DNA of 64,000 nucleotides from the NCBI GenBank assembly GCA_903901425.1, contig CAIURC010000063.1, positions 1 through 64,000 of the forward strand, in the 5' to 3' direction. Position numbers and translations under genes: made by a program. Position 1 is the stretch's first letter. Each line of letters begins with the position of its first letter. The notes beneath the pieces were generated by a model. It worked only from the letters and a program-made list of their open reading frames with translations. It had not been told where the DNA came from and ran no database searches. Positions 4,568-50,590 of this stretch are shown piece by piece. Origin of the DNA: an uncultured Spartobacteria bacterium (lineage in GTDB: Bacteria; Verrucomicrobiota; Verrucomicrobiia; Chthoniobacterales; Chthoniobacteraceae).

Positions 4568-5572
4568 GTGAATTATTTGACGCCCAGTTTGAGGGAGCTC
4601 TCCCGGAAGTTCCGCCGGTTCCGGATCCGACGGCAGCTTCAGAGCGAACGGGTGAAGCTGGCGGAGGCGGAAGGGGAATTGGGTTTGTTGGGGTGGCAGC
4701 AGGCGGATTTCCGTGGGGAAAGCCAGCGGGAGGTGGAAAAGATCAAGAACTGCGAGCGGGAACAGTCGCGTCTGACCAACGAGGGAGCCGAGGTGGGGCG
4801 TTCCATGCGGAAGTTCAGGGAGGAACGGGAGGTGGGAAAAAAGGCGTACGAGGAGCAGAAACAGGTTTTGCAGGCGGAGCGTCAGGTGTTGTTGGAACCC
4901 GTGACGCGGCTCGAAAAAGAGATCGAGGAGCATCGGCGGGAGGAACCTGGGTACGAGAAGCGGATTCCGGACTTGGACCGTGAACTAAGGGATGTTCAAG
5001 CCCAGTACTCGAGGTTGCTGGCGGAGAAGAATCAGTCGCCCCAGGACCGCGCGGAATTGATTCGGTTGCGGGAACGGACGGTGGCGATTCCGAATGAAAA
5101 GGCGGATTTGAGGACCCGGCATCTCCGGGTGGCCAGCGAGATTCAGATGCTTGAGAGCCAGTTGACGGCTCGGCGCAAGGAATTGGATGAGGCAACGGGA
5201 AAACTGCGGGTTCTGGAGCAGGAGTTTGCGGAAAAGGACCGGGTGTTGGCCACGGAACTCAAGAAACTGGATAAGGAGAAGGCGCGGATTGATGCGGAGA
5301 ACGACGCTTTGGAGTTGGCCAAGGCCAATCCCTACCAGCAACTGGGCCGGATTCTGGCGGACCACCGGTTGCCGCCGGTGAACCAGCCGCATTCTTTGGA
5401 AAAAGTGCTTCGGTACCGCGAATCTCTCGAGCTTTTGGAGGCGGAACTGGTGACCTCCAAACAGGAATCTGGCGCTGAGAACTTGCCGGTACTCAGGGTG
5501 TCTTTTGTGCTTTTGGGGACGATAGTTTTTCTGGTTTTTCTGGTCTTGGGCGCTCTGATGATTTCTGGTTGA
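4568..5572 (+). CDS. Long coiled-coil protein with C-terminal membrane anchor
   Basis: I do not recognise a family. The 334-residue product is very rich in Glu, Arg, Lys, Gln and Leu and reads as an almost continuous coiled coil from about residue 5 to 260. A single hydrophobic helix follows at about 310-332 (SFVLLGTIVFLVFLVLGALM), so it should be tail-anchored with the coiled coil in the cytoplasm. There is no signal peptide. The GTG start at 4568 has no clear Shine-Dalgarno sequence, so the exact start is uncertain. The next gene begins three bases after its stop and also encodes a single-pass membrane protein, suggesting the two act as a pair. Coiled coils give spurious matches to SMC-like proteins, so no function is proposed. 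Confidence 0.6.
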   Translation: MNYLTPSLRELSRKFRRFRIRRQLQSERVKLAEAEGELGLLGWQQADFRGESQREVEKIKNCEREQSRLTNEGAEVGRSMRKFREEREVGKKAYEEQKQVLQAERQVLLEPVTRLEKEIEEHRREEPGYEKRIPDLDRELRDVQAQYSRLLAEKNQSPQDRAELIRLRERTVAIPNEKADLRTRHLRVASEIQMLESQLTARRKELDEATGKLRVLEQEFAEKDRVLATELKKLDKEKARIDAENDALELAKANPYQQLGRILADHRLPPVNQPHSLEKVLRYRESLELLEAELVTSKQESGAENLPVLRVSFVLLGTIVFLVFLVLGALMISG

Positions 5573-5575
5573 GCT

Positions 5576-6013
5576 GTGTCTGAGAATCCCAAGGCTGAAT
5601 CTGAAAACACCGCTTCTGGCGGGGGGAACGATTTCCTGTTCAGTCAGAGGTGGTTGCAGTTGGGGTGGGGATTTGGGCTCGCAATGCTCCTGGTGGTGGG
5701 GTTGGGCTGGGCGGAAAACGGGGCTGGAATTCGCCGGGACGAGATGCGCGAGGTGACCGGTTTGGGGGACACGGTGTTTTTCCATCCGCCCTCGGCAAAG
5801 GTGGGGGAGGAGGTGGCTGTGGTTTCAGGGCGCGTCCTGATCCTGGCCGAAAGCCGCGAATACCCCCAGGGGGACTTGGAGATGCGCCGGATTGCCACGG
5901 ACAAAAAAACCGGCATTTCCGTGTATCAGCGCCGCGCCGGGAACGACCGGGCCGGGATTTATTACCTGAGGCTCTCGCCGGGGGTTTACCTCAAGGTCCA
6001 CCTCAGTCGTTGA
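5576..6013 (+). CDS. Small single-pass membrane protein of unknown function
   Basis: The 145-residue product has an N-terminal polar stretch, one transmembrane segment at about residues 28-46 (LGWGFGLAMLLVVGLGWAE) and an approximately 95-residue domain predicted to lie outside the cytoplasm. That domain is rich in beta-type sequence (VFFHPPSAKVGEEVAVVSGRV; GIYYLRLSPGVYLKVHL). I do not recognise the family. It starts with GTG three bases after the coiled-coil gene and is probably co-transcribed with it. It ends facing the convergent M23 peptidase gene. The reading frame is well supported by the tight spacing and by third-position GC bias. Confidence 0.55.
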   Translation: MSENPKAESENTASGGGNDFLFSQRWLQLGWGFGLAMLLVVGLGWAENGAGIRRDEMREVTGLGDTVFFHPPSAKVGEEVAVVSGRVLILAESREYPQGDLEMRRIATDKKTGISVYQRRAGNDRAGIYYLRLSPGVYLKVHLSR

Positions 6014-6087
6014 GGAGTCTGCGGGCCAGTGCACACCGGATCCGGCGGGTCGCCGGTGGCGGGGAATTGGGGCCGCCAAACCCGAGC

Positions 6088-6816
6088 CTACTCTCTGAGG
6101 CGCATGTCGCTGTACCGGTCGATCCGGAACTGGACACCGGGTTTTGGAGGCGGTGGCGGAGATTTCTGAACCGGCGACGGGGTGGTTGAACGGGCCGCCA
6201 AGGTGGGCGGGGTGGACGGGAAAGTGTTGATGGGGACGCTGGCCAGTTTGGAGACTGCCGGGAGGCGGGAATGATCGGCAATAAAATGGCTGGGGCTCCA
6301 GTACACGGATTGGTCCTGAGGAAAGCTGTTCCGGAACATGCCAACCCGGATGTCTTTGCGCATCTCAAAATGGAGGTGCGCGTCATACATTCCGCGGTTG
6401 TTTCCGATGGTGCCGACTTTCTGCCCCCTGCGCACGACCTGCCCCTCTCGCACCAGAATCTGCTGGAGATGACCGTAGAGGGAGTCCACGAACTTGGTCT
6501 GACCCGACTCTGGGTAGGCATGGCGGATGATGACCACGTTTCCCCAGCCCATTCGGAAGTCGCGTGCAAACACCACAATCCCGTGGGCAGTGCTCAGAAC
6601 CGGGTCCCCGAGGTCGGTGTCGCCCCCCATCACCCCGTTCCAGTCCTCGCCGAGGTGCCCGTTGATTCGCAACCCGCGGGACATGTAATACCCGCCGTTG
6701 CTTTGATCCACGGGAAGGCTGAATCCGTCCGCGAACGGGACCTGCGCGGAGTCTCCAGACAAGGCTCCGGGAAGTGCCAGAATGGTCAGAAAAAGGGCGG
6801 GCAGAAGGCGGAGCAT
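6088..6816 (-). CDS. Secreted M23 family (LytM-type) peptidase
   Basis: This is a 242-residue exported metallopeptidase expected to cut peptidoglycan cross-links. A signal peptide covers about residues 1-21. The M23 zinc signature is visible as HLGEDW (His54, Asp58), YGHL (His116) and DAHLHFE (His147 and His149). The lysostaphin-like fold usually carries H-x3-D and HxH as zinc ligands, and all are present. After the catalytic domain comes a Pro/Ser/Thr-rich tail (about 185-225, including a KSPPPPPKPG run), probably flexible or wall-spanning. It lies directly downstream of the undecaprenyl-diphosphatase gene on the same strand, so both may serve cell-wall turnover. Confidence 0.85.
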   Translation of the reverse strand: MLRLLPALFLTILALPGALSGDSAQVPFADGFSLPVDQSNGGYYMSRGLRINGHLGEDWNGVMGGDTDLGDPVLSTAHGIVVFARDFRMGWGNVVIIRHAYPESGQTKFVDSLYGHLQQILVREGQVVRRGQKVGTIGNNRGMYDAHLHFEMRKDIRVGMFRNSFPQDQSVYWSPSHFIADHSRLPAVSKLASVPINTFPSTPPTLAARSTTPSPVQKSPPPPPKPGVQFRIDRYSDMRLRE

Positions 6817-37300: not shown

Positions 37301-39121
37301 TTACGGGGATGGAATGTGGGAGAGGCCGATCAAGGTTTCGCCTCCGACAAAAGACATTCCCTCCACGGCCTCCCGGGTTTTGGTGGGGGCAAGCGTCACC
37401 ACCAGGTGGCTGAGGCTGCGTCGGACCCGGACTTCGGCGGCATGGGAGGGGAACTGGTTTCTGGCCAGCCAGCGGGAAGCGCAGTCGATGGCCCACGGGT
37501 GCCATGCAAAATTGATGCTTTCTCCTGCGTTCTGAGAAATTCCCAGATGACTCGTGCATGAGGCCCGAAACTCCCCGGCGTCGTATGCATTTTCCTCAGT
37601 CCGCCCGGTCAACCGGTCCAAGTGGGCTTCGATCTGGTTCAGGAGCGTGGCTGGGAGCGGAAACCCGGTCGCGGCTTCTGCCCGGAGCAGTTCGGCGTAG
37701 AGTTGGAGCGTTAACCCCTCGGAAATGGGAACCGAATCCTCATGGGTCCGGCGCCAGCCCCAGATGCCTTTGAATTCGTAGAGGTTGAGGAGAAACTGCG
37801 CGGTTTTCTTCAGAAGCGCGTCCCGGGTTTGGGTGTTGTCTTTCCACGGAAGCGCTGCGGCATGGACCTCCAGCAGGCAATGCAGGCCCAGCGCGGTGGT
37901 GTAGGGGCTGTATTGCCCGGGGATTTTCTGGTTGGGAAAGATGTTCCAGCCGCCCGTGTCCAAAGGACGGTATCGGGGGTTGTCGACCGATTCCTGAGCC
38001 CGGCGCAGGCACTCCAGATACTGTGGCCGGTCCGGCTCAGGAATCAGTCCGGGAGTGCCGAGCGCCCGGGCCAGCATTGCCACCGTCCAAAGTCCGGGTT
38101 CCGCGTAAGTCAACCGGGATTCCTCGCCTTCCTGCCCCCGCCAGCCGTAGCCCTCCACAAAAACCTCGGGATCAAAAAGATACTTGATGTACCGGGTCAG
38201 CAGGGCCCGTTTCTGGTCCGCAGACAACTCCGGGGTCGCCAAAAGTCCGCAGATCGCCTGCGAAGAGCCCCAGACGCTCGAACCCGGATCATTGGGTTTG
38301 CGCAGTTCGGTAGCGATCCTGCCATCGGGGAGTTGGGCTGCATGGATGGCTTGGGCGATCGATGCCCGAGTTTCGGAGGCCGTTTTCCGGACGGTGCCCG
38401 TGTTTTCAAAGGAGCGGAAAAGGGAAAGGTCGTTTTGATCGAGCCAGTCCTGAAGGAATGGGGCTCCGGGCATCTTGGGAAGCGCATCGGCCAGCAGGAC
38501 GTAGCCCAGCAGCGCGAGTCCGGCCACAACGGCAGGCCGGCACTTTTGCCACACCCGGCTCCAGCAGAACGGGCGGTCAATCCAGACCAGAGTGGAGCCC
38601 AGTCCCTTGAGGTGGACGCGGTCTTTGCGGAAGACCCGGGCGAGCGCGGCGTCCCGATGCGCCATGGACTCGAAGGTGGGCGTGTCCAGGGCAAGGCCTT
38701 CGGGACGCGCCATGTTTTGAAGTCGCGCGGCGAGGTTGACTGTCACCCCGTAGTAGTCGTCGGACTTGGAAACCTCGCCTGCCACCACCCCGATCCCGAC
38801 CCGGGTGGGGAGCTTGGAGCCGCCGCCTTCCTCCGCCATCCGGCCGGCCACAAAAGCAGGAAATGCCAGCCGCGCTTTCTGGGCTGTCTGCACCACAAAC
38901 TGAAGGAGATCATGGTCGGGTGTCTGCTCGGTTTCCCAGATGAGCAAGTGGCCGTCGCCCAGGTTTTTCACAAAGGTGGGCGGACGTTCGGTGAAAAGGT
39001 CGAGGATGGTCCGGTGGGCTGCAGCGGCGAATGCCCCCAGATCAGCGGTGGCGATCTTTTTCGAGGCGGCTGTGAAGCCCCGGATGTCGTAGATGAGGAC
39101 AACAGCGGACACCTTGGCCAT
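37301..39121 (-). CDS. Class III nucleotidyl cyclase with N-terminal catalytic domain, one TM helix and large C-terminal helical domain
   Basis: Residues 1-180 form a complete class III cyclase domain: metal Asp12 in YDIRGFT and Asp56 in LGDGHLLIW, purine-selecting Lys52, Asp121/122 before YYG, transition-state Asn129 and Arg133 in VNLAARL. The Lys/Asp pair predicts adenylate rather than guanylate cyclase. One transmembrane helix follows (about 196-213). The remaining approximately 390 residues appear to be an all-helical toroid-like domain (YTTALGLHCLLEVHAA; GGWNIFPNQK; GLWTVAMLARALG) reminiscent of alpha/alpha-barrel glycan or terpenoid-binding folds, expected outside the cytoplasm. Receptor cyclases usually carry the sensor N-terminal and the catalytic domain C-terminal, so this order is inverted. 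No cAMP receptor is nearby. Confidence 0.8.
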   Translation of the reverse strand: MAKVSAVVLIYDIRGFTAASKKIATADLGAFAAAAHRTILDLFTERPPTFVKNLGDGHLLIWETEQTPDHDLLQFVVQTAQKARLAFPAFVAGRMAEEGGGSKLPTRVGIGVVAGEVSKSDDYYGVTVNLAARLQNMARPEGLALDTPTFESMAHRDAALARVFRKDRVHLKGLGSTLVWIDRPFCWSRVWQKCRPAVVAGLALLGYVLLADALPKMPGAPFLQDWLDQNDLSLFRSFENTGTVRKTASETRASIAQAIHAAQLPDGRIATELRKPNDPGSSVWGSSQAICGLLATPELSADQKRALLTRYIKYLFDPEVFVEGYGWRGQEGEESRLTYAEPGLWTVAMLARALGTPGLIPEPDRPQYLECLRRAQESVDNPRYRPLDTGGWNIFPNQKIPGQYSPYTTALGLHCLLEVHAAALPWKDNTQTRDALLKKTAQFLLNLYEFKGIWGWRRTHEDSVPISEGLTLQLYAELLRAEAATGFPLPATLLNQIEAHLDRLTGRTEENAYDAGEFRASCTSHLGISQNAGESINFAWHPWAIDCASRWLARNQFPSHAAEVRVRRSLSHLVVTLAPTKTREAVEGMSFVGGETLIGLSHIPSP

Positions 39122-39179: not shown

Positions 39180-40841
39180 TCAGGGCTGCCGTGGTGGACG
39201 CTTTCCAGGCGGTTCCTCAGGACTGGAGCGGGTAAAACGGACCTTCAACTCGGCCGAGGCCAGCACCCGGCCTTGGAGCGCGGCTTGGAGTGTCTCCAGT
39301 GTGACGGGTGCGTTGGCCGATAGTTCCGGGTCCGCTGAGAGGGCGTACAGGGTGAGGAAATACGACTTTTCACCGGGGCCCTTGGATTGAGGGGGCGCGT
39401 ATTCGCCGCGCCGGTTGATGGAGTTGAGTCCAAAATGGCCGATCGACTGTGCGTTTTTTGGAATCTGGCGGGTTGAGCCCGGAATGTGGTGGAGGATCCA
39501 GTAGCATTTCAACCGGCCCTCAGGATCCACATGGTGCATGGTGAGCGCGTAGCTCTGGGTTCCAGGAGGTGCACCTTGCCATTCCATGGGGGGCGAGATT
39601 CCGGCACCTTCCCCGGTGAACTCGGCGGGCAACGTCCCATCGGATGGCACCGCGGGACTCCGCAGGTTGAACCCCTCCTTTGGCCGTTGCAGGTCCTTGG
39701 CAACCGGTTCGCCAGAGGGTTCCTCTCGGCGAGGCGGTCTTCCCTGCTCGGAATCGCGTGGAGTTCTTCCACGAGATCCATCTGCTGGTTCCCGAGGTTT
39801 TGGGGGGCGGTCCTGATTGCCCGGTGGACGGGCGCCTGCGTTTCGTGCCGTGTAAACTTCCCGGACGGGTGCAGAGTGAGGCGACTGGAACTCAAACGGA
39901 TACGAACCGTCTGGAAGAGCCGAGTAGATCACCTGGTGCTTCTCCCCGCGGATCTCGTAGGAAAGGCGCCAGGTGTTGGGATTCACAGTCTCGTGTCCGG
40001 TGATGCTGGCGCCCCGGAGCGCCTGTAAGGCGGGCCGTACCGGGTTTGCGCGGGGCTGGGGGTCGACTTGGCCATCGCGTTCAATCACTTCTCCGTGGAA
40101 TCCGCCATTCACAAACGGATAGGAGGTGGAAGCGTGGTAATGGTAGCCGAGGGGGGCGTGCTTGTGGCCGCGAAATGTGTCCAGACCCGAGGGGGGCCTG
40201 CCATCCTGCTCCAACGTGCCCACGAGGGGATACCCGTCCAGAGCATAGGCAATCGGGTTGCCCCGGCCCACCACCGGCTCAAGGTGCAGCGGGGCGGCAT
40301 GGTAATGGTAGTCGTCGGCCCGCCCACAATGCCCCCCCCAACGGTCCAGTTCCCCAATCTCAGCGGAAATTTCGCCCCGGTTGTTTTGCGGGTTGAAGAT
40401 CGGTATCCCGTTTGCTGCCAGAGCAATGGCTCCGCGCAGGAACTGGTTGTGGATCGAGCGCGGGTTTTTTGCGGGAACGGGTTGGAGCGGGATCTGCCAT
40501 GCATTGGAGCCGGTGTAGGGCTGGGGCAGGGGCACCTGCTGTTGCCACGCTGTGATGCCGGTCATCATGGGATGGGTGGGCAGGCCGTTCCCTTCCACGT
40601 AAAGGTTCCTGCCGTCCCAACGGACTTGCACGGCCGGGGCGAACTTTTTGAACACAGCAGCCTGGGCGGGTTCGGAGGCGGCGTTGCGCACCGGCACAGC
40701 CGATCCCGAAGGTGGAACTGTGTTTTGGGCGAGAAACCAACGCGGCTGGTTTGTTCCCGCGCTGGAACTGGGGTCATGGGCCGATGCGCCGTGGGCGATC
40801 AGGATGCCAACGAATCGGAGGAGTCGGAAGTGGGCTTGCAT
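39180..40841 (-). CDS. Exported YHYH-domain protein fused to PEBP (YbhB/YbcL-like) domain
   Basis: The 553-residue product has a signal peptide (FRLLRFVGILIAHGASA). A YHYH domain covers about residues 70-300, with DDYHYHA and LGYHYHA motifs and GHKHAP and DGYPL between them, a fold thought to bind metal. A charged, Pro/Arg-rich linker (about 330-385) leads to a C-terminal phosphatidylethanolamine-binding/Raf-kinase-inhibitor-like domain (about 390-540), recognisable by FTGEGAGISPPMEW, HHVDPEGRLKCYWILHHIP and SYFLTLYALSADPEL. I start at ATG 40841 where the signal peptide begins. Both domains occur separately in many bacteria; I do not know an established role for the fusion. It lies 61 bases after the sugar-phosphate operon. 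Confidence 0.82.
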   Translation of the reverse strand: MQAHFRLLRFVGILIAHGASAHDPSSSAGTNQPRWFLAQNTVPPSGSAVPVRNAASEPAQAAVFKKFAPAVQVRWDGRNLYVEGNGLPTHPMMTGITAWQQQVPLPQPYTGSNAWQIPLQPVPAKNPRSIHNQFLRGAIALAANGIPIFNPQNNRGEISAEIGELDRWGGHCGRADDYHYHAAPLHLEPVVGRGNPIAYALDGYPLVGTLEQDGRPPSGLDTFRGHKHAPLGYHYHASTSYPFVNGGFHGEVIERDGQVDPQPRANPVRPALQALRGASITGHETVNPNTWRLSYEIRGEKHQVIYSALPDGSYPFEFQSPHSAPVREVYTARNAGARPPGNQDRPPKPREPADGSRGRTPRDSEQGRPPRREEPSGEPVAKDLQRPKEGFNLRSPAVPSDGTLPAEFTGEGAGISPPMEWQGAPPGTQSYALTMHHVDPEGRLKCYWILHHIPGSTRQIPKNAQSIGHFGLNSINRRGEYAPPQSKGPGEKSYFLTLYALSADPELSANAPVTLETLQAALQGRVLASAELKVRFTRSSPEEPPGKRPPRQP

Positions 40842-40902
40842 GCGCGGGAATTTCTGCTGTCCCGAGACTGCCTGACCCGGCCTGAAGAAAAGGTGAAGAC
40901 GC

Positions 40903-41475
40903 TCAGGGGCGCTGGAGTTCGGGCAGTTCCACAAACGCGTAACAGAGCATGTGCAGGATGTGCATCTGCACGTCCTCAACCCTTCCGTAGTGGGTGTCTT
41001 CGACTACCAATACCTGGTTGGCAATCTCCGAGAGCCGCCCGCGCTTTGCACCGACCAACGCGGCAGTTTCCACACCGTTGGTTCGTGCCCATTCAAACGC
41101 TTTCACCAGGTTGGGCGAATTCCCGCTCACGCTCGCCGCAATCAACAGGTCGCCCGGCCGCGCAAAGTTCATCAACTGCCTGAGGAAACAATCTTCATAG
41201 CTGTAGTCGTTGCCCAGCGCCGTGATCCATGCCGTGTTGTCCGTTAACGACAAAACCCGGACCCGGCGTGGGAGCGCGTCGGAGGAGCATTTTCCGAGGT
41301 CCGTGGCAAAGTGCGAGGCGTTTGCGGCGCTGCCGCCGTTGCCAAGTGCGAACACCTGTGCATCGCGTTTCCAGGCGGACTGGATGCTCTGGGTGAGCCT
41401 TTCGATCGCCTCCAGATTCACGGATTCGAGGGCGCGGTGTTGGGCGGCGATGTAGTTTTGGAGCCAGGTTTTCAT
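40903..41475 (-). CDS. SIS-domain phosphosugar isomerase, GmhA-like
   Basis: The 190-residue product has the single SIS fold of sedoheptulose-7-phosphate isomerase: ALGNGGSAANASHFATDL (phosphate loop and metal-side His), SVSGNSPNLVKAFEWA, and the C-terminal HILHMLCYAFVEL helix with a His equivalent to the GmhA active-site base. GmhA converts sedoheptulose 7-phosphate to D-glycero-D-manno-heptose 7-phosphate. It is the last gene of the five-gene operon, five bases after the ROK gene, next to a heptose-kinase-like PfkB protein, which supports a heptose or related sugar pathway. The glutamate often following QHFA-E in GmhA is Asp here (ATDL). Start ATG 41475. Confidence 0.75.
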   Translation of the reverse strand: MKTWLQNYIAAQHRALESVNLEAIERLTQSIQSAWKRDAQVFALGNGGSAANASHFATDLGKCSSDALPRRVRVLSLTDNTAWITALGNDYSYEDCFLRQLMNFARPGDLLIAASVSGNSPNLVKAFEWARTNGVETAALVGAKRGRLSEIANQVLVVEDTHYGRVEDVQMHILHMLCYAFVELPELQRP

Positions 41476-41480
41476 GGGAT

Positions 41481-42425
41481 TTAGGATGCAGGGTTTCGGA
41501 GACATTGTGCTGCCAGTGCCAGAGCACCAACGGGTACGGCGTCCTCGCGGAGCTCAGAGAGGCGGAGTCCGGGGCCGGGCAGAATCGCGTCCATCAGGAG
41601 CGGGCGGAGGTGGAAATCCACGGCCGTCTTCAGGGGTTCGCCCAGAAGCGAAACGCCGCCTCCAAGGATCAGGATTTCCGGGTTGAACAGGTGGACCACG
41701 TGTGAAAGCGCATGGGCAATATGTCCCGCAGCGGTCTCGAGGATCTGAAGGGCAAATGGATCGTTTTCTGCGATCGCCTGCGCAAGGTGACGCGCCTCGC
41801 CCCCGGGAGAACCGAGGGAGAGTCGGGTAAGTATACTCTCCGGGTTTGTCGCCAAGCCCTCCCGGATGCTCCGGTCAATGCTCCACCCTGAACAGACGTC
41901 CTCCGGCCGGAGCCGGGAACGGTCCAATGCGAGGTGCCCGATCTCGGCTTCCGTGGGCGATGCGCCGTGGTAGATCCGGGCCTCGTGGATCAGGCCGCCT
42001 CCCATCCCTGAACCGATGGTGACGTAGAATACGGGGTCAAAACCCCGGCCCGCGCCGTGCACCGCTTCGCCCAGCGCAGCCGCATTGGCGTCATTCTCCA
42101 CAAACACCGGAAGGCCTGAGATTTCCTTCAGCCATGGTCCGAGCAAAAATCCGGTCCATCCCGGGACATGGTAGGATTTTACGACCTGGCCCGTGCGCCA
42201 GTTGACGGGGCCGCCGTATCCGACGCCGATGGCGGCTGGGTGGTGCAGGGCGATCAACTCTGGGAGAATCCTTTGGATTTCCGACCGGATACCCTCCCCG
42301 CCGCGTTCCGGGTTTACGGTGCAGCGGCGACGGTCCAGAATAGTGCCATGGGAGGTTCCCACGCTGAGTTGAAGTTTTGTGCCGCCGATTTCGATGGCAA
42401 GCAGTCGAGGATGGGGATCGTTCAC
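41481..42425 (-). CDS. ROK family sugar kinase
   Basis: This 314-residue kinase opens with the phosphate-binding AIEIGGTKLQLSVG and has the catalytic ENDANAAALGE and IGSGMGGGLI segments of ROK glucokinase/N-acetylmannosamine-kinase enzymes. The usual zinc-binding CxCGxxGCxE motif after EIGHL is degenerate: only one Cys remains (RPEDVCSGWS), so metal binding is probably lost or altered. Start is GTG 42425, overlapping the PfkB stop (GTGA at 42422-42425). A second sugar kinase in the same operon is notable, since a GmhA/HldE route needs only one. Substrate unknown. Confidence 0.85.
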   Translation of the reverse strand: MNDPHPRLLAIEIGGTKLQLSVGTSHGTILDRRRCTVNPERGGEGIRSEIQRILPELIALHHPAAIGVGYGGPVNWRTGQVVKSYHVPGWTGFLLGPWLKEISGLPVFVENDANAAALGEAVHGAGRGFDPVFYVTIGSGMGGGLIHEARIYHGASPTEAEIGHLALDRSRLRPEDVCSGWSIDRSIREGLATNPESILTRLSLGSPGGEARHLAQAIAENDPFALQILETAAGHIAHALSHVVHLFNPEILILGGGVSLLGEPLKTAVDFHLRPLLMDAILPGPGLRLSELREDAVPVGALALAAQCLRNPAS

Positions 42426-43462
42426 AGGGTTTGGGATGGGGGGAGCGAGGGGAGCAGTCGGAGAATGTCCGGTCTGGTGGCGCTTCCGGAGGTGCCGAGT
42501 TGGTGGACCACGTGGGAGCAGGCCAGCATCGCGAGTTGCAAAGATTCCACGGTGTTGGCGCCCGCTGCGGTTGCCGCCGCCAGATTTGCCGTGACGCAGT
42601 CCCCGGCGCCCACCACGTCGATGGGCCCGCGCACCGGCAGTGCAGGGACCAGAATCGGTTCTGTCTTGCCGGGTTCGGCACAGACGATACCCCGTTCTGA
42701 GAGCGTGACGCAGACCGGTTGGCCGCTCCGGTCCGCCAGCGCCTGGGCCGCGCTCCCGCACCGCGCGGGGGAGTGGTCCTTGAGCCCCACCAGTCCAGCC
42801 AGTTCCGCCGCGTTGAGTTTGAGGCGGCAGGCCGGAAACCTGCCGAGCCCCGATCGGCTGTCTGCAAACACCGGGATGCCGGGGTGCGCTGCCGACAGAC
42901 GCCCGAGGGCCTCCAAGACCCGGCTCGTCACGGTGCCGGTTTCAGGGAGATCCACCTGGTCCATCACCACCACGGCTGCGCACTCGGGGAAAACCATCTC
43001 CAAGGCGGCCACAAGCGAATCCGAGACGGGCTCCGGCGTTGGAGACCAGTTCTTGATGTCCAGCCGGCTGAGTTCAACGGGTGCGACCCCAGGGGAAATC
43101 AGGAGCGGTTTGACGTAGGTGAAAGTCCGGCGGAGCGGGGTCTCCATGAAAAACCGGGGATCCACCCCAGGCAGAGAGCAGACGGCGGACCGCAGCTCAA
43201 ATCCTTCGCCGTCCCGGCCATGAAACCCAATGGGGACGATCGAGCCGATTCCGAGGGCGGAAAGGTTGTTCAAGACCGTGCCCGCGGCACCGGGTTGGGG
43301 ACGGATTCGGGTGACATTGTGGACAGGGAGCCCGGTTTCGATGGAGGTCTCTGAACGGGCCGGGTCGATTTCGAGGTAGCGGTCCAGACAGAAGTCGCCC
43401 AGCACCGCAATCTTTAGACGGGGGAAACGGCCGAGGAGAAATTCGAGGCGTTCTTGGGTCAT
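42422..43462 (-). CDS. PfkB-family kinase resembling heptose-7-phosphate kinase (HldE/RfaE N-domain)
   Basis: The 346-residue protein has the ribokinase fold with AVLGDFCLDRYL at the start, PGAAGTVLNNLSALG (sugar binding), LKLNAAELAGL and the anion-hole/catalytic-base motif DVVGAGD near residue 280. The entry GDFCLDRY and the PGAAG block resemble the kinase half of HldE, which phosphorylates heptose 7-phosphate at C1, but there is no C-terminal nucleotidyltransferase domain. It overlaps the gene on each side by four bases. Whether the sugar is a heptose is inference from the neighbouring GmhA-like and HAD genes. Confidence 0.78.
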   Translation of the reverse strand: MTQERLEFLLGRFPRLKIAVLGDFCLDRYLEIDPARSETSIETGLPVHNVTRIRPQPGAAGTVLNNLSALGIGSIVPIGFHGRDGEGFELRSAVCSLPGVDPRFFMETPLRRTFTYVKPLLISPGVAPVELSRLDIKNWSPTPEPVSDSLVAALEMVFPECAAVVVMDQVDLPETGTVTSRVLEALGRLSAAHPGIPVFADSRSGLGRFPACRLKLNAAELAGLVGLKDHSPARCGSAAQALADRSGQPVCVTLSERGIVCAEPGKTEPILVPALPVRGPIDVVGAGDCVTANLAAATAAGANTVESLQLAMLACSHVVHQLGTSGSATRPDILRLLPSLPPSQTL

Positions 43463-44568
43463 GGCCGTGTGAGTGCGGCAAAGAGGGCATGGAGGAAAGC
43501 CACATTGTCGCACTGGTGGTAAATCATCGGGGCCTGCATTCTGGAAAAGCTTTTGCAGAAGCGCAGGTAATAGGCGGGATGATTTTTTGGGGGTTCCCCC
43601 GCCGACCAATCCCACCCGCCATTGTCCTGAAGGTCGACCACGTCGATGGAGTGCCCGTGGACGATCGGTCGTCCTGTCTGAAGGCGGAGGTTGTTCACGC
43701 AACTGAGGGATTTTTCGAATACCTGAGGGCCCATCACCGCCGAGCCGATACAGAGCACCACACCATCGTCCAGAAGGTCGGCCGATGCTCCAAACACCCG
43801 GAAATCCAAGCCGCCCGCGCGGCCAATCGCGCTGCCGGTGAAAAGGGGGTGGTTGGAAATAATGTCGTATCCGATGCCCGGATGAACGGTGGCCGGGACA
43901 CCGTGGCGCCATGCGGAGGCAAGGATGGAGGCTTCGGGGTGCCGGTGTTCCACCCGCATCGGGCCGGGACGCAGCAAGCCGGACTCAAGGGCGCCCAGCA
44001 GGTCCGCCCGCGCAGAAGCCAGAGGGTGCCTTGGTTCTCGCGCAAGGCTTGCCGCCAGCGAGTCCGCATCCGGAAGAACAGCGCCGTTCTCACAGATGAA
44101 CCTTCCCACTGCCGCCCCGTAGCCGAGTTGATCCAGCGCGCCTGCCAGAAGCGCGGCATGGAGGCAGACTGCGGTTTCCTCCCAAATCCCGAAGGTCCCT
44201 GCCGCCACGTTCTGTTCGACGCTCTCGGTGGACACGCCCGACCACGCAAACTCCCAGTCATGAATGGAGCCTGCCCCGTTGGTGGCAAGATGGGTAACCC
44301 AGTTTTTTTCCAATAAACGGTCTACAATCAGGGCTGCGCCATTGCGGAGCAGGTGGGCACCGTAAATCAGAAAAACAGCGGCCCCCTTTTCACGCGCGCG
44401 CCGGACGCGCTCCGCGCATTCCTGGACGGATTCCTGCAGCGGTCCAGAAAGGAGGGGCGGCGGGGAATCTGGATTGATGAGCACGTCCACTGCGCGCGAA
44501 AGGCTCTTGCGCTCCTGCAGTGGCCGGATCCGGAGCCTTCCAAGGTCGAGTGCGGAATGGGGGATCAT
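43459..44568 (-). CDS. Deoxyhypusine-synthase-like protein of unknown activity
   Basis: The 369-residue product resembles the bacterial deoxyhypusine-synthase-like family. THLATNGAGSIHDWEFA, then TESVEQNVAAGTFGIWEET, then VPATVHPGIGYDIISNHP and VVLCIGSAVMGPQVFEKSLS correspond to the family's NAD-binding Rossmann blocks. The true enzyme uses NAD and spermidine to modify eIF5A, which bacteria lack. The C-terminal catalytic-lysine segment of eukaryotic enzymes (EFDGSDSG region) is not recognisable, so spermidine chemistry is doubtful. The gene is locked between PfkB and HAD genes by ATGA overlaps on both sides, which strongly suggests a role in the same pathway, perhaps an NAD-dependent step on a sugar phosphate. 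Confidence 0.65.
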   Translation of the reverse strand: MIPHSALDLGRLRIRPLQERKSLSRAVDVLINPDSPPPLLSGPLQESVQECAERVRRAREKGAAVFLIYGAHLLRNGAALIVDRLLEKNWVTHLATNGAGSIHDWEFAWSGVSTESVEQNVAAGTFGIWEETAVCLHAALLAGALDQLGYGAAVGRFICENGAVLPDADSLAASLAREPRHPLASARADLLGALESGLLRPGPMRVEHRHPEASILASAWRHGVPATVHPGIGYDIISNHPLFTGSAIGRAGGLDFRVFGASADLLDDGVVLCIGSAVMGPQVFEKSLSCVNNLRLQTGRPIVHGHSIDVVDLQDNGGWDWSAGEPPKNHPAYYLRFCKSFSRMQAPMIYHQCDNVAFLHALFAALTRP

Positions 44569-45386
44569 CGGCCCAGAAGATGGTTTACGAGGGAAACGGC
44601 GTCGCGGTAGTCCGGGATCGCAGCATCTGCCCCGGACTCGAGCAGTTGCGTGAGTTTGTAGGGGTGGGGAATCCCAGAGCCGTTGTTTTCCTCGTCGCTG
44701 CAAACGGCGACAGCGAGCCCGCCGAGTTGTTTGGTGCACTCGATTTCCACGGGGCCGTCGCCAAACGCGAGCAGGTTCTCGCCTCCGATCTTTTCCGAGG
44801 CGAGGATGCGCTCAAAGACCTCCAGTTTGCTGAATCCCGTCGGGTCGGGTGCGCTCCCGTAAATGTGGTTTCCAAAAAAGCAGGTTAATCCGAGCGCTTC
44901 CGCCTCTTGCCGGACCCGGTATTCGACCGAGCTACTCAGGATGACCAGAGTCAGGCCCAGCGAGGACAGGTGTTCAAGCAGGGGCCGCGCGCCGTGGACC
45001 ACATAAGCGTCTTCTGCGCACCGTCCATCCGCCATCGCATCCAGACGCTCTTGGATCCGGGCGTCCAGAGCCGTCTGGAAATGGTTCCTGAGCGTTTCCG
45101 GGGCCGGGCAGGATGCGGCTTCAGCGGCAAAGCGCTGCATCTGGAGCAGGGATGGTTTGCCGTTCATTCCATAAACAATCGATTCCATCTGGGTGGTCCA
45201 CTCGGGCCGCCCTGTTTCCTCGGGCCGGGGCCAGTGGGCGCGGAACGTTTCAAACATGAGTTCTGGCCAGCCGTGGCGGACCCAGGAGAGCGTGCCGTCA
45301 AAATCAAAGACCACGTGCGAAATGGTAGTGCGCGGCGCGCAACGGACCAAAACGCCGGGAGTGGGGAAGGAGGGGGATCCGTTCAT
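44565..45386 (-). CDS. HAD-superfamily phosphatase
   Basis: The 273-residue protein has the HAD motifs in order: VVFDFDGTLSW (motif I, nucleophile Asp in DFDGT), VILSSS (motif II), a Lys in GFSKLEVFERI (motif III) and LAFGDGPVEIE (motif IV). A helical cap lies between motifs I and II. The entry DFDGTLSWVRHGW is like HAD proteins found beside sugar-phosphate kinases. It is the first gene of the five-gene operon and overlaps the deoxyhypusine-synthase-like gene by four bases. It could play the role of GmhB (removing the 7-phosphate from a bisphosphate) although it is not closely GmhB-like. Only 48 bases separate it from the divergent PAS-AraC gene. Confidence 0.8.
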   Translation of the reverse strand: MNGSPSFPTPGVLVRCAPRTTISHVVFDFDGTLSWVRHGWPELMFETFRAHWPRPEETGRPEWTTQMESIVYGMNGKPSLLQMQRFAAEAASCPAPETLRNHFQTALDARIQERLDAMADGRCAEDAYVVHGARPLLEHLSSLGLTLVILSSSVEYRVRQEAEALGLTCFFGNHIYGSAPDPTGFSKLEVFERILASEKIGGENLLAFGDGPVEIECTKQLGGLAVAVCSDEENNGSGIPHPYKLTQLLESGADAAIPDYRDAVSLVNHLLGR

Positions 45387-45434
45387 GGGTTGCAGTGTAG
45401 GCCGGAACCGGGCAGAAGTGTGACGACAAACTCT

Positions 45435-46286
45435 ATGCCAAAAGCGACATTACTGCGTCCCTTTTCAGGACCCGAAAGAAGCACGGCCGAGATCAAACGC
45501 TGGCGCCAACGCCGGGAGGCATGGACGAGAAAAATCCAGCATGCGGAATTTTTCCTGCAACTCTTTGAGCAGATTCCTGGGGTCCATTTCTTTGCAAAAG
45601 ACCGGGACGGCCACCTGATGTACGCGAGTCGCGGGCTGCTGGACCGGTACGGGTTTGAGGAGGAACAGGAGTTTCTGGGGCGGACGGATTACGACATCAA
45701 TCCGGGATGCATGGCCGAGGCGTACGTGGCGGATGACCGGCGGATTCTGGGGGGAGAGGTGGATGCGGTTGAGCGGATTGAGCTCTGGTGGGATCGCCAG
45801 GGAATGCCGGACTGGTTTCTGGTCAGCAAGCGGGTGGTGCGTGACCGCGAGGGGCGGATCCACGGCGTGGCCGGGGTCCTGCGAAGGCCTCAGGATTTTG
45901 AGCGTTCACTGCCCGTGTTTGAGGGCGTCTCCAAGGCTGTTGAAATCATCCGCCACAAGTTTGCAGACGGTATCCGAATTGCGGATGTGGCCCGGCAGTG
46001 CGGCCGCTCGCTCCGCCAGTTGCAGCGCCAGTTTCATTCTGCGTTGGGTCTCAGCCCCCAGGATTTCCTCACCCGGACCCGGGTTTTGGCGGCGATGCGG
46101 TTTCTGGAGGAGACGGTCTTGAGTTGTGCGGAGATTACTGTGCGCTGTGGGTTTGTGGATCCGAGCGCATTCAGCGCGCATTTCCTGCACTGGGTGGGGG
46201 CGACTCCCATGGAATACCGGCGGCGGAGCGGAATCCAAAAAACAAAAGGGCCGGGCCGGGGAAAACCCCGGACCCGGCCCGAGTGA
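45435..46286 (+). CDS. AraC-family regulator with N-terminal PAS domain
   Basis: The 283-residue protein has a PAS domain at about residues 35-160 (FFLQLFEQIPGVHFFAKDRDGHLMYAS; FLGRTDYDINPGCMAEAYVADDRRI). The C-terminal AraC DNA-binding domain covers about 170-265, with two helix-turn-helix units (IRIADVARQCGRSLRQLQRQF; SCAEITVRCGFVDPSAFSAHF). PAS-AraC proteins of this form are common in Verrucomicrobia and Planctomycetes. Divergent placement suggests that it controls the sugar-phosphate operon and itself. The last residues (GPGRGKPRTRPE) are encoded by a terminator hairpin belonging to the opposite strand. Start ATG 45435. Confidence 0.85.
   Translation: MPKATLLRPFSGPERSTAEIKRWRQRREAWTRKIQHAEFFLQLFEQIPGVHFFAKDRDGHLMYASRGLLDRYGFEEEQEFLGRTDYDINPGCMAEAYVADDRRILGGEVDAVERIELWWDRQGMPDWFLVSKRVVRDREGRIHGVAGVLRRPQDFERSLPVFEGVSKAVEIIRHKFADGIRIADVARQCGRSLRQLQRQFHSALGLSPQDFLTRTRVLAAMRFLEETVLSCAEITVRCGFVDPSAFSAHFLHWVGATPMEYRRRSGIQKTKGPGRGKPRTRPE
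46237..46280 (-). terminator. Strong intrinsic terminator embedded in the 3' end of the AraC gene
   Basis: Bases 46248-46261 pair with 46266-46280 (14 base pairs of G/C with one bulged A) around an AAAA loop. On the minus strand the hairpin is followed by TTTTGTTTTTT (46247-46237). It therefore terminates the minus-strand exported-protein gene ending at 46323, yet lies inside the coding sequence of the convergent AraC-type gene. Confidence 0.85.
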
Positions 46287-49634: not shown

Positions 49635-49805
49635 GATGGGCGGAAGGATCCGAGCCGGCATCCTAGAGGGTTCCGGGGGGCGGCGGGAGCGTGTTTTCAA
49701 AATTTTGCGGCCCCGGCCTACGTCCATCTCCCAAACGGCGCCCGATTCCATGGGGGGGGAGCGCATGGCAAAAGCGGGCTGGAAAGGCTGGGCGGGCCGG
49801 AACTG

Positions 49806-49853
49806 GGGCTGAAACGAGGGCTGAAACGAGGGCTGAAACGAGGGCTGAAACGA
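49806..49853. repeat. Four perfect copies of a 12-nt tandem repeat at a start codon
   Basis: GGGCTGAAACGA is repeated four times without mismatch (49806-49817, 49818-49829, 49830-49841, 49842-49853). The last A of the fourth copy is the first base of the likely ATG of the response regulator. Degenerate GATGGACGGAA units follow inside the gene. Each copy brings a GAGGG-like purine run, so copy number could alter the spacing or the strength of the leader. Confidence 0.8.
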
Positions 49854-50590
49854 TGGACGGAAAGATGGACGGAACGGGGGTTGAGAATGGGGATGTCACC
49901 ACCGGTGGCACCGGGGCCAACACCGGGGGCCTGGTTTGGAACCAGAGCGGGTGTGCGGAGGAGGGAGCCGGGGCGGCGGTGGTCTTGGTGGAGGACAATC
50001 CGCTGGACGCGGAGCTGGCGTTGCGTGCGCTCCGGACCTGCGGCATTCGCGGGCGCCTTCTGCATCTCCGGGACGGCCAGGAGGCCATCGATTATTTCTT
50101 CAGGGACGTTTCCGATGGGGGGAGGGGCGTGGAGTCTGCAGGGGGCACAAATCGGTGGACTGGCGCGGAGGGTGTTTCTGGGGAGGCGGCCGCTGGTTGG
50201 GTGGGATCCGGCCCCAGTGCTCCGGAGGAGCAGGGCAGTCTTTGGGGGGCACCTTTGCCCCGGGTGCTGCTTCTGGACTGGAAGCTGCCCAAGCGGGACG
50301 GTACCGAGGTGCTCAGGGCGGTGCGCAACCACGCCCGGACCCGGTTTTTGCCGGTGGTGGTCCTGACTTCGTCCCGGGAGGAGCGGGACCTGATGTCCAG
50401 CTATCATCTGGGCGCGAACAGTTACATTGTGAAGCCGGTGAACTATGAGAGGTATCTGGAGGCCGTGACCATGCTTGGGGTGTATTGGATCACCCTGAAT
50501 CAGGTGCCTGAAGGTTCGGGGGGCATCCCGGTGAAAGCCGGGGGTGCGGATTCCGGATGCCCTCCATTGGGGGAACCCAAACCGGGGTAA
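49853..50590 (+). CDS. Rcp1-like single-domain response regulator with a long internal insert
   Basis: The approximately 245-residue protein is a CheY-type receiver. The acidic pair lies in VVLVEDNPLDAELAL, the phosphoacceptor Asp in VLLLDWKLPKRDG, the Thr/Ser switch in VVVLTSS and the conserved Lys in SYIVKPV. The phrasing RDGQEAIDYFF and the ending SYIVKPVNYERYLEAV are typical of Rcp1-type regulators paired with phytochrome-like kinases. Between IDYFF and PRVLLLD lies a Gly/Ala/Glu-rich insert of about 45 residues, and the first approximately 35 residues are Gly/Thr-rich. No histidine kinase is adjacent. The start is uncertain: ATG 49853 directly follows the 12-nt repeats, and the frame is open upstream to 49691. 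Confidence 0.8.
   Translation: MDGKMDGTGVENGDVTTGGTGANTGGLVWNQSGCAEEGAGAAVVLVEDNPLDAELALRALRTCGIRGRLLHLRDGQEAIDYFFRDVSDGGRGVESAGGTNRWTGAEGVSGEAAAGWVGSGPSAPEEQGSLWGAPLPRVLLLDWKLPKRDGTEVLRAVRNHARTRFLPVVVLTSSREERDLMSSYHLGANSYIVKPVNYERYLEAVTMLGVYWITLNQVPEGSGGIPVKAGGADSGCPPLGEPKPG

Follow-up and report, generated by a model that had tools for sequence, protein, structure and literature searches.

A GSU2086-family paralogue in a heptose-type operon of a Spartobacteria bacterium, and the possible replacement of HldD by its sister type

Deoxyhypusine synthase (DHS) and ornithine cyclodeaminase oxidize their substrate with NAD, rearrange it, and reduce the product, the cofactor being returned in the process. 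HldD, a member of the NAD-dependent epimerase/dehydratase family (PF01370), oxidizes ADP-heptose at C-6 by means of a bound cofactor and then re-reduces it. The enzyme is described as NAD+-dependent in PMC10948575. In Geobacter, the authors of a Tn-seq study (PMC5585712) place GSU2086 in a sugar biosynthesis operon as a hypothetical cytoplasmic protein, and the defects given there are nearly equal for GSU2085 hldE (-3.1), GSU2086 (-3.2), and GSU2087 gmhA (-3.7). Judged by locus number, GSU2086 lies between hldE and gmhA. The family to which it gives its name (NF052581, "GSU2086 family protein") is already known, and NCBIfam does not name a function for it. A search of open-access PMC full text likewise found no function for the family, and nothing on nickel-pincer ornithine cyclodeaminase, on DHS together with heptose, or on an ADP-heptose epimerase in Planctomycetes; for a heptose epimerase in Geobacter it gave only an apparently unrelated paper.

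The window analysed here is a stretch of 64,000 nucleotides of an uncultured Spartobacteria bacterium (contig CAIURC010000063.1). An intact ORF of 369 amino acids spans positions 43459-44568 on the minus strand (44568..43459); the plus-strand frame of the same interval is interrupted by a stop. The initial annotation saw here a DHS-like enzyme lacking its lysine segment, embedded in a carbohydrate operon between sugar kinases. In the main it stands with regard to the gene, its motifs, and the missing segment, but not with regard to the kinases, and the strand is given here as minus. All four motifs that it cited (NGAGSIHDWE, GTFGIWEET, GIGYDIISNHP, and GSAVMGPQVF) are found within the minus-strand ORF. 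The protein scores 302.2 bits against NF052581 over residues 7-364 (curated cut-off 250). On the evidence of this score and of homologues at 80 loci, the ORF is a genuine gene and not a chance reading frame; identity to the window protein is 54-64% at all 80 loci kept, which come from named genomes. The description as a variant DHS-like enzyme therefore needs amending, since the protein is not an orphan: its family is named, if uncharacterised, and another member of it is encoded in this genome. That second copy is of the shorter A-type (G000:C98, 417 bits) and is located beside HldA. The genes around the window copy are as follows.

44907..46286, plus strand: AraC-type regulator with a PAS domain, divergent (PF12833, PF08448)
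44565..45386, minus strand: HAD-family hydrolase, presumed sugar-phosphate phosphatase (PF00702, 52 bits)
43459..44568, minus strand: B-type GSU2086-family protein, 369 aa, with a predicted DHS/ornithine-cyclodeaminase fold (NF052581, AlphaFold model, alignment, and tree)
42422..43462, minus strand: PfkB kinase, HldA-like (best NCBIfam match TIGR02198 rfaE_dom_I, 118.8 bits, cut-off 345)
41481..42443, minus strand: ROK-family sugar kinase (PF00480, 146 bits; TIGR00744, 154.8 bits, below cut-off); the predicted start codon is approximate, the scan having been run from 42443
40903..41505, minus strand: SIS-domain isomerase, GmhA-like (PRK13936 phosphoheptose isomerase, 107 bits, cut-off 276)

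On the minus strand the order is thus HAD hydrolase, window gene, PfkB kinase, ROK kinase, and SIS isomerase. The end of the HAD gene overlaps the start of the window gene by 4 nt (ATGA), and the ATG of the PfkB gene overlaps the stop of the window gene by 4 nt. The sugar kinases therefore do not flank the gene on both sides, as had been proposed: the HAD phosphatase is upstream, and PfkB and ROK are both downstream, followed by the GmhA-like SIS gene. More narrowly, the carbohydrate operon can be described as one of heptose-type genes, the best match of the PfkB protein being HldA and that of the isomerase being of GmhA type. Because both score far below their NCBIfam cut-offs, they look like paralogues of the heptose enzymes and not those enzymes themselves. 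The operon has no nucleotidyltransferase. The start of the AraC/PAS regulator is uncertain because its ORF as called extends back into the HAD gene; a homologue was found at 8 of 96 loci searched. Elsewhere in the window, positions 39180-40979 encode YHYH and phosphatidylethanolamine-binding domains in one chain, in a same-strand ORF whose called extent runs into the end of the SIS gene; positions 37301-39121 encode a 606-aa protein with an N-terminal nucleotide-cyclase-type domain and a remainder to which no domain was assigned; and at about 49690-49860 short tandem repeats appear in translation (GLKRGLKRGLKR / AETRAETRAETR), ahead of a response-regulator-like ORF.

For an AlphaFold model built from the window protein together with 80 relatives, pLDDT is 92.3 and pTM 0.91. 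Its top Foldseek matches are the LOR/SDH protein 3c2q, ArgZ, AgrE, and DHS. The best structural match is the ornithine cyclodeaminase domain of AgrE/ArgZ (TIGR00300, PF21570; 6lrg, 6juy), with VIA-align Z scores of 19.5-19.7 (AgrE, 6lrf_A: Z 19.7, rmsd 3.5 Å, 216 residues aligned), followed by the Methanococcus LOR/SDH protein 3c2q (Z 18.3), archaeal DHS (Z 17.6), and human DHS (1dhs: Z 17.1, 250 residues, 3.9 Å). By the superposition on human DHS, the DHS fold is kept. The DHS-like fold was rightly recognized, with the ornithine-cyclodeaminase domain as the nearer cousin. Sequence profiles agree weakly with the fold, with ArgZ/AgrE at E 0.005-0.007 and hhalign probabilities of 82% (ArgZ-like sequences) and 52% (DHS); the hhalign comparison of A1 with DHS ended at profile residue 258, short of the position equivalent to K329. 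A phmmer search of the single window protein against the PDB gave one chance match only.

This kinship raises the question of whether the window copy acts on amines or amino acids, like ornithine cyclodeaminase or homospermidine synthase, and is merely located in a sugar operon. The closest fold speaks for it, as does the HDxE motif common to the window protein and AgrE/ArgZ, and D312 of the window protein aligns with a conserved Asp of these enzymes. However, the window protein is only about 16% identical to AgrE/ArgZ, is without their dihydrolase domain, and lies in a sugar operon. It has no Pfam match above cut-off: it reaches 18.4 bits against PF21570 (cut-off 27) and 12.6 bits (E 0.08) against the deoxyhypusine synthase family PF01916 (gathering score 27), and in NCBIfam 15 bits against TIGR00300 (cut-off 410.8). 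DHS and the bacterial DHS-type homospermidine synthase (PF01916) have the same superfamily fold, but their WGK catalytic segment is missing from the window protein. The motif occurs in 0/91 B-type, 0/8 C-type, 0/2 D-type, and 1/48 A-type sequences, while the positive control L001 has WGKI, so the claim that no catalytic-lysine region is recognisable holds. The only true DHS of the genome is a separate gene (G000:C103, 232 bits) with EAVSWGKI. For these reasons a true DHS or homospermidine synthase was rejected. The gene context is one of sugar phosphates and not of protein or polyamine, as the earlier suggestion of a substrate other than that of DHS would have it, and sugar-phosphate enzyme neighbours recur in separate subtypes of the family (see below). 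An amine or amino-acid enzyme is accordingly quite improbable. In Limnoglobus roseus, a DHS with SSWGK (L053, 10836-12011) is found some 3 kb away from the B-type gene.

Within the family, the tree supports a B clade (1.0, 91 sequences), a C clade (0.96, 8 sequences), B+C (1.0), and A+D (1.0); A was not recovered as a clade apart from D. The window copy belongs to the B clade, whose members are longer than the A-type and carry an inserted segment; a second conserved block, GGWDW..GEPP..AYY, is present in the B clade and gapped in the A-type. The window copy nevertheless has the same near-invariant residues as A-type members. Across 149 family sequences these include R20, G70, H72, N97, G98, H103, D104, E106, E115, F126, G127, E131, T132, H229, D235, D255, K286, D312, and R336. 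Among the B-type lysines conserved at 90% or more, K286 is the only one that the A-type keeps too.

Conserved residues of this kind could hold a cofactor other than NAD. LarA performs hydride-mediated epimerisation with a nickel-pincer nucleotide, and the family might do the same, with the nucleotide held by K286 together with H72, H103, and H229. All four residues stand at about 100% in the 149 sequences, and the related TIGR00300 bears the NCBIfam name "ornithine cyclodeaminase, nickel-pincer nucleotide-dependent". On the other hand, the solved AgrE complex 6lrg is titled with NAD+, and a pattern scan, a weak test, found no larB/C/E-like gene in the 1.9 Mb of window plus loci. A nickel-pincer cofactor thus seems improbable, although somewhat less so than an amine enzyme.

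The neighbourhood of B-type genes was surveyed at the best 80 loci (named genomes) of at least 560 confirmed stretches, with neighbours called by a simple ORF caller and not by a trained gene finder. These best 80 loci come from Planctomycetes, Verrucomicrobia, Lentisphaerae, and Acidobacteria. A same-strand HAD gene is near the B-type gene at 50 of them and a PfkB gene at 51, both at 45 and neither at 24; SIS and ROK genes are near it at only 6 and 2 of the 80, respectively. Similar partners are found with the C-type. At L159 and L160 a PfkB-HAD fusion, one protein of about 633 aa, lies beside the gene, and similar PfkB and HAD matches occur beside the C-type genes of L185, L189, L190, and L202 and, at L203, by another short-form copy; at most other C-type loci no PfkB or HAD neighbour was found. 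At the C-type locus L161, GmhA is directly downstream (209.9 bits, cut-off 209.45).

Could the window copy itself stand in for HldD? With E values up to 0.01 admitted, the window protein has no NCBIfam match to TIGR02197, the HldD model (cut-off 274.6 bits), and HldD is of a different family. HldD was searched for in 50 of the 80 genomes that carry a B-type copy; there the B-type coexists with HldD in 16 and with the A-type in 16, and it adjoins HldD in three genomes (G353, G374, and G383). The B-type is therefore ruled out as the HldD replacement. In the Gemmataceae genome G353 (L183, 2805-4911) the B-type gene and HldD are on one strand, with matches 62 bp apart.

It is the A-type that trades places with HldD. 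In 57 relatives, with the A-type taken as a match above 400 bits and HldD as a match above its cut-off (scores drop from 309 to 148 bits), the A-type occurs in 32 and HldD in 23. Both are present in 2 (G011 and G023), the A-type only in 30, HldD only in 21, and neither in 4 (Fisher p=1.2e-9; this and the other p-values ignore relatedness and overstate the evidence because the genomes are related and often incomplete). The four with neither are G026 (73% complete), G035 (where a contig ends in an A-like fragment), G036, and G045 (a C-like copy). Within family f1 alone the exclusion is weak (both, A-type, HldD, and neither in 2, 30, 2, and 2 genomes; p=0.053). The 50 B-type genomes show the same pattern, with both in 0, the A-type in 16, HldD in 16, and neither in 18 (p=7e-4). 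There the A subtype was assigned from the length of the match (about 0.9 kb vs about 1.07 kb), after which the loci were retrieved; of the 16 A loci, 15, G366 included, were placed as A-like in the tree or identity table, from which one or more identical rows had been dropped before counting. The exchange is seen within groups as well: among Gemmataceae, L080 and L092 have the A-type whereas L073 and L109 have HldD, and among Acidobacteria, L090 and L123 have the A-type whereas L104 has HldD.

Of 288 genomes sampled from the phylum, 35 have a family match above cut-off, and HldD is found in 10 of these (two weak) compared to 179 of the 253 family-negative genomes (p=2.1e-6). By type, HldD accompanies the C-type in 5/27, the B-type in 3/3, the D-type in 2/2, and the others, including the window's own genome, in 0/3. 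The C-type thus also tends to exclude HldD (5/27 vs 179/253, p=1.6e-7), with lineage as a strong confounder. The absence of HldD does not require the GSU2086 family, since 18 of the 50 B-type genomes have neither HldD nor the A-type and 74 of the 253 family-negative genomes lack HldD. At L146 (G044, with HldD), a 324-aa ORF at 5539-6513 overlaps the start of HldA by 4 nt and has only a 33-bit family match with most motifs lost, and may represent an A-type gene that has decayed or diverged strongly. In G019 and G023 a DHS-type gene with WGK is directly upstream of HldD on the same strand (L148, 1200-2198 and 110-1123; L149, 4935-5939 and 3925-4929).

The remainder of the heptose pathway is shared. 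In the 57 relatives, matches to the GmhA family (some weak) and to the HldA family (in pieces in G018, G035, and G047; weak in G026) are found in all 57, and the HldC domain and GmhB in 54 each, with no split between A-type and HldD genomes. Replacement of GmhA, HldA, HldC, or GmhB by the GSU2086 family was rejected, as all are present in both A-type and HldD genomes. The A-type gene has the same pathway neighbours as HldD. Coordinates were compared in 27 of the 32 relatives with an A-type, and in 25 of these the gene lies within 250 bp of HldA; in G008 no A-type gene is beside HldA, and in G019 the gene before HldA is, judged by a motif, presumably a homoserine kinase. Typical clusters are A-HldA-GmhB-KdsB and LpxK-A-HldE-heptosyltransferase. 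At the 16 A-type loci of the second set, HldA/HldE is nearby at 7, a GT9 heptosyltransferase-like gene at 6, LpxK at 6, and KdsB at 3; at least one of these is found at 11 loci and none at 5. Of representative neighbours tested against NCBIfam, KdsB, LpxK, and heptosyltransferase II are above cut-off, whereas HldA (343.5/345 bits) and HldE (421/521 bits) are just or well below it.

Based on this gene exchange, we consider it reasonably probable that the A-type replaces HldD in the synthesis of ADP-L,D-heptose, with the same reaction. Because the family shares a fold that oxidizes and re-reduces and trades places with HldD, it is most simply another redox-neutral epimerase. Alternatively, the role of the family in heptose metabolism may be something other than epimerisation, such as that of a dehydrogenase, dehydratase, or isomerase leading to an unusual heptose, with organisms without HldD using D,D-heptose. 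The context is firm and the reaction less so; many genomes are without both HldD and the family; and D-type copies, including that of L163 located behind a nucleotidyltransferase-PfkB fusion, occur in genomes with HldD. A repeated one-for-one exchange between the A-type and HldD, together with heptosyltransferase neighbours, is however best explained by equal function, and we regard the non-epimerase alternative as unlikely, if the most serious of those considered.

The epimerase reading can be put as a mechanism. A bound hydride acceptor, of NAD type by homology, would oxidize a carbinol of the heptose derivative and then return the hydride, and the simplest outcome of that return would be epimerisation at C-6. 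In the synthesis of ADP-L,D-heptose, the A-type would do so instead of HldD. The window copy is read as an enzyme of a heptose-like phosphate because it has the same near-invariant residues, has parallel partners, is without a nucleotidyltransferase in its operon, and belongs to a type that coexists with the A-type or HldD. That coexistence suggests related epimerase chemistry, probably on a heptose-like phosphate, in a separate, parallel pathway, in which the GmhA-like isomerase, HldA-like kinase, HAD phosphatase, and B-type enzyme would act and which the ROK kinase would feed. For the family as a whole, redox-neutral heptose enzymes on the DHS/ornithine-cyclodeaminase fold, with the A-type replacing HldD and the B-type as its paralogue in a parallel pathway, make a tentative proposal that falls a little short of an even chance. 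Epimerase-type chemistry by the window copy, which follows from paralogy and neighbours, is more tentative still. A broader version, in which the fold gave rise to sugar epimerases, possibly with a nickel-pincer nucleotide, that repeatedly replaced HldD across several phyla, and in which the window operon encodes another heptose-phosphate pathway, so far unrecognised, is speculative and somewhat doubtful.

The new lead is therefore the exchange between the A-type sister and HldD, with the window copy as the A-type's paralogue in a heptose-like operon; annotators would otherwise label such proteins hypothetical or deoxyhypusine-synthase-like. If the proposal is true, the GSU2086 family, so far named only by a locus tag, would gain a pathway, many Verrucomicrobiota, Planctomycetota, and Acidobacteriota would have a gap in their LPS heptose synthesis filled, and sugar chemistry would be added to a fold known for its action on amines.
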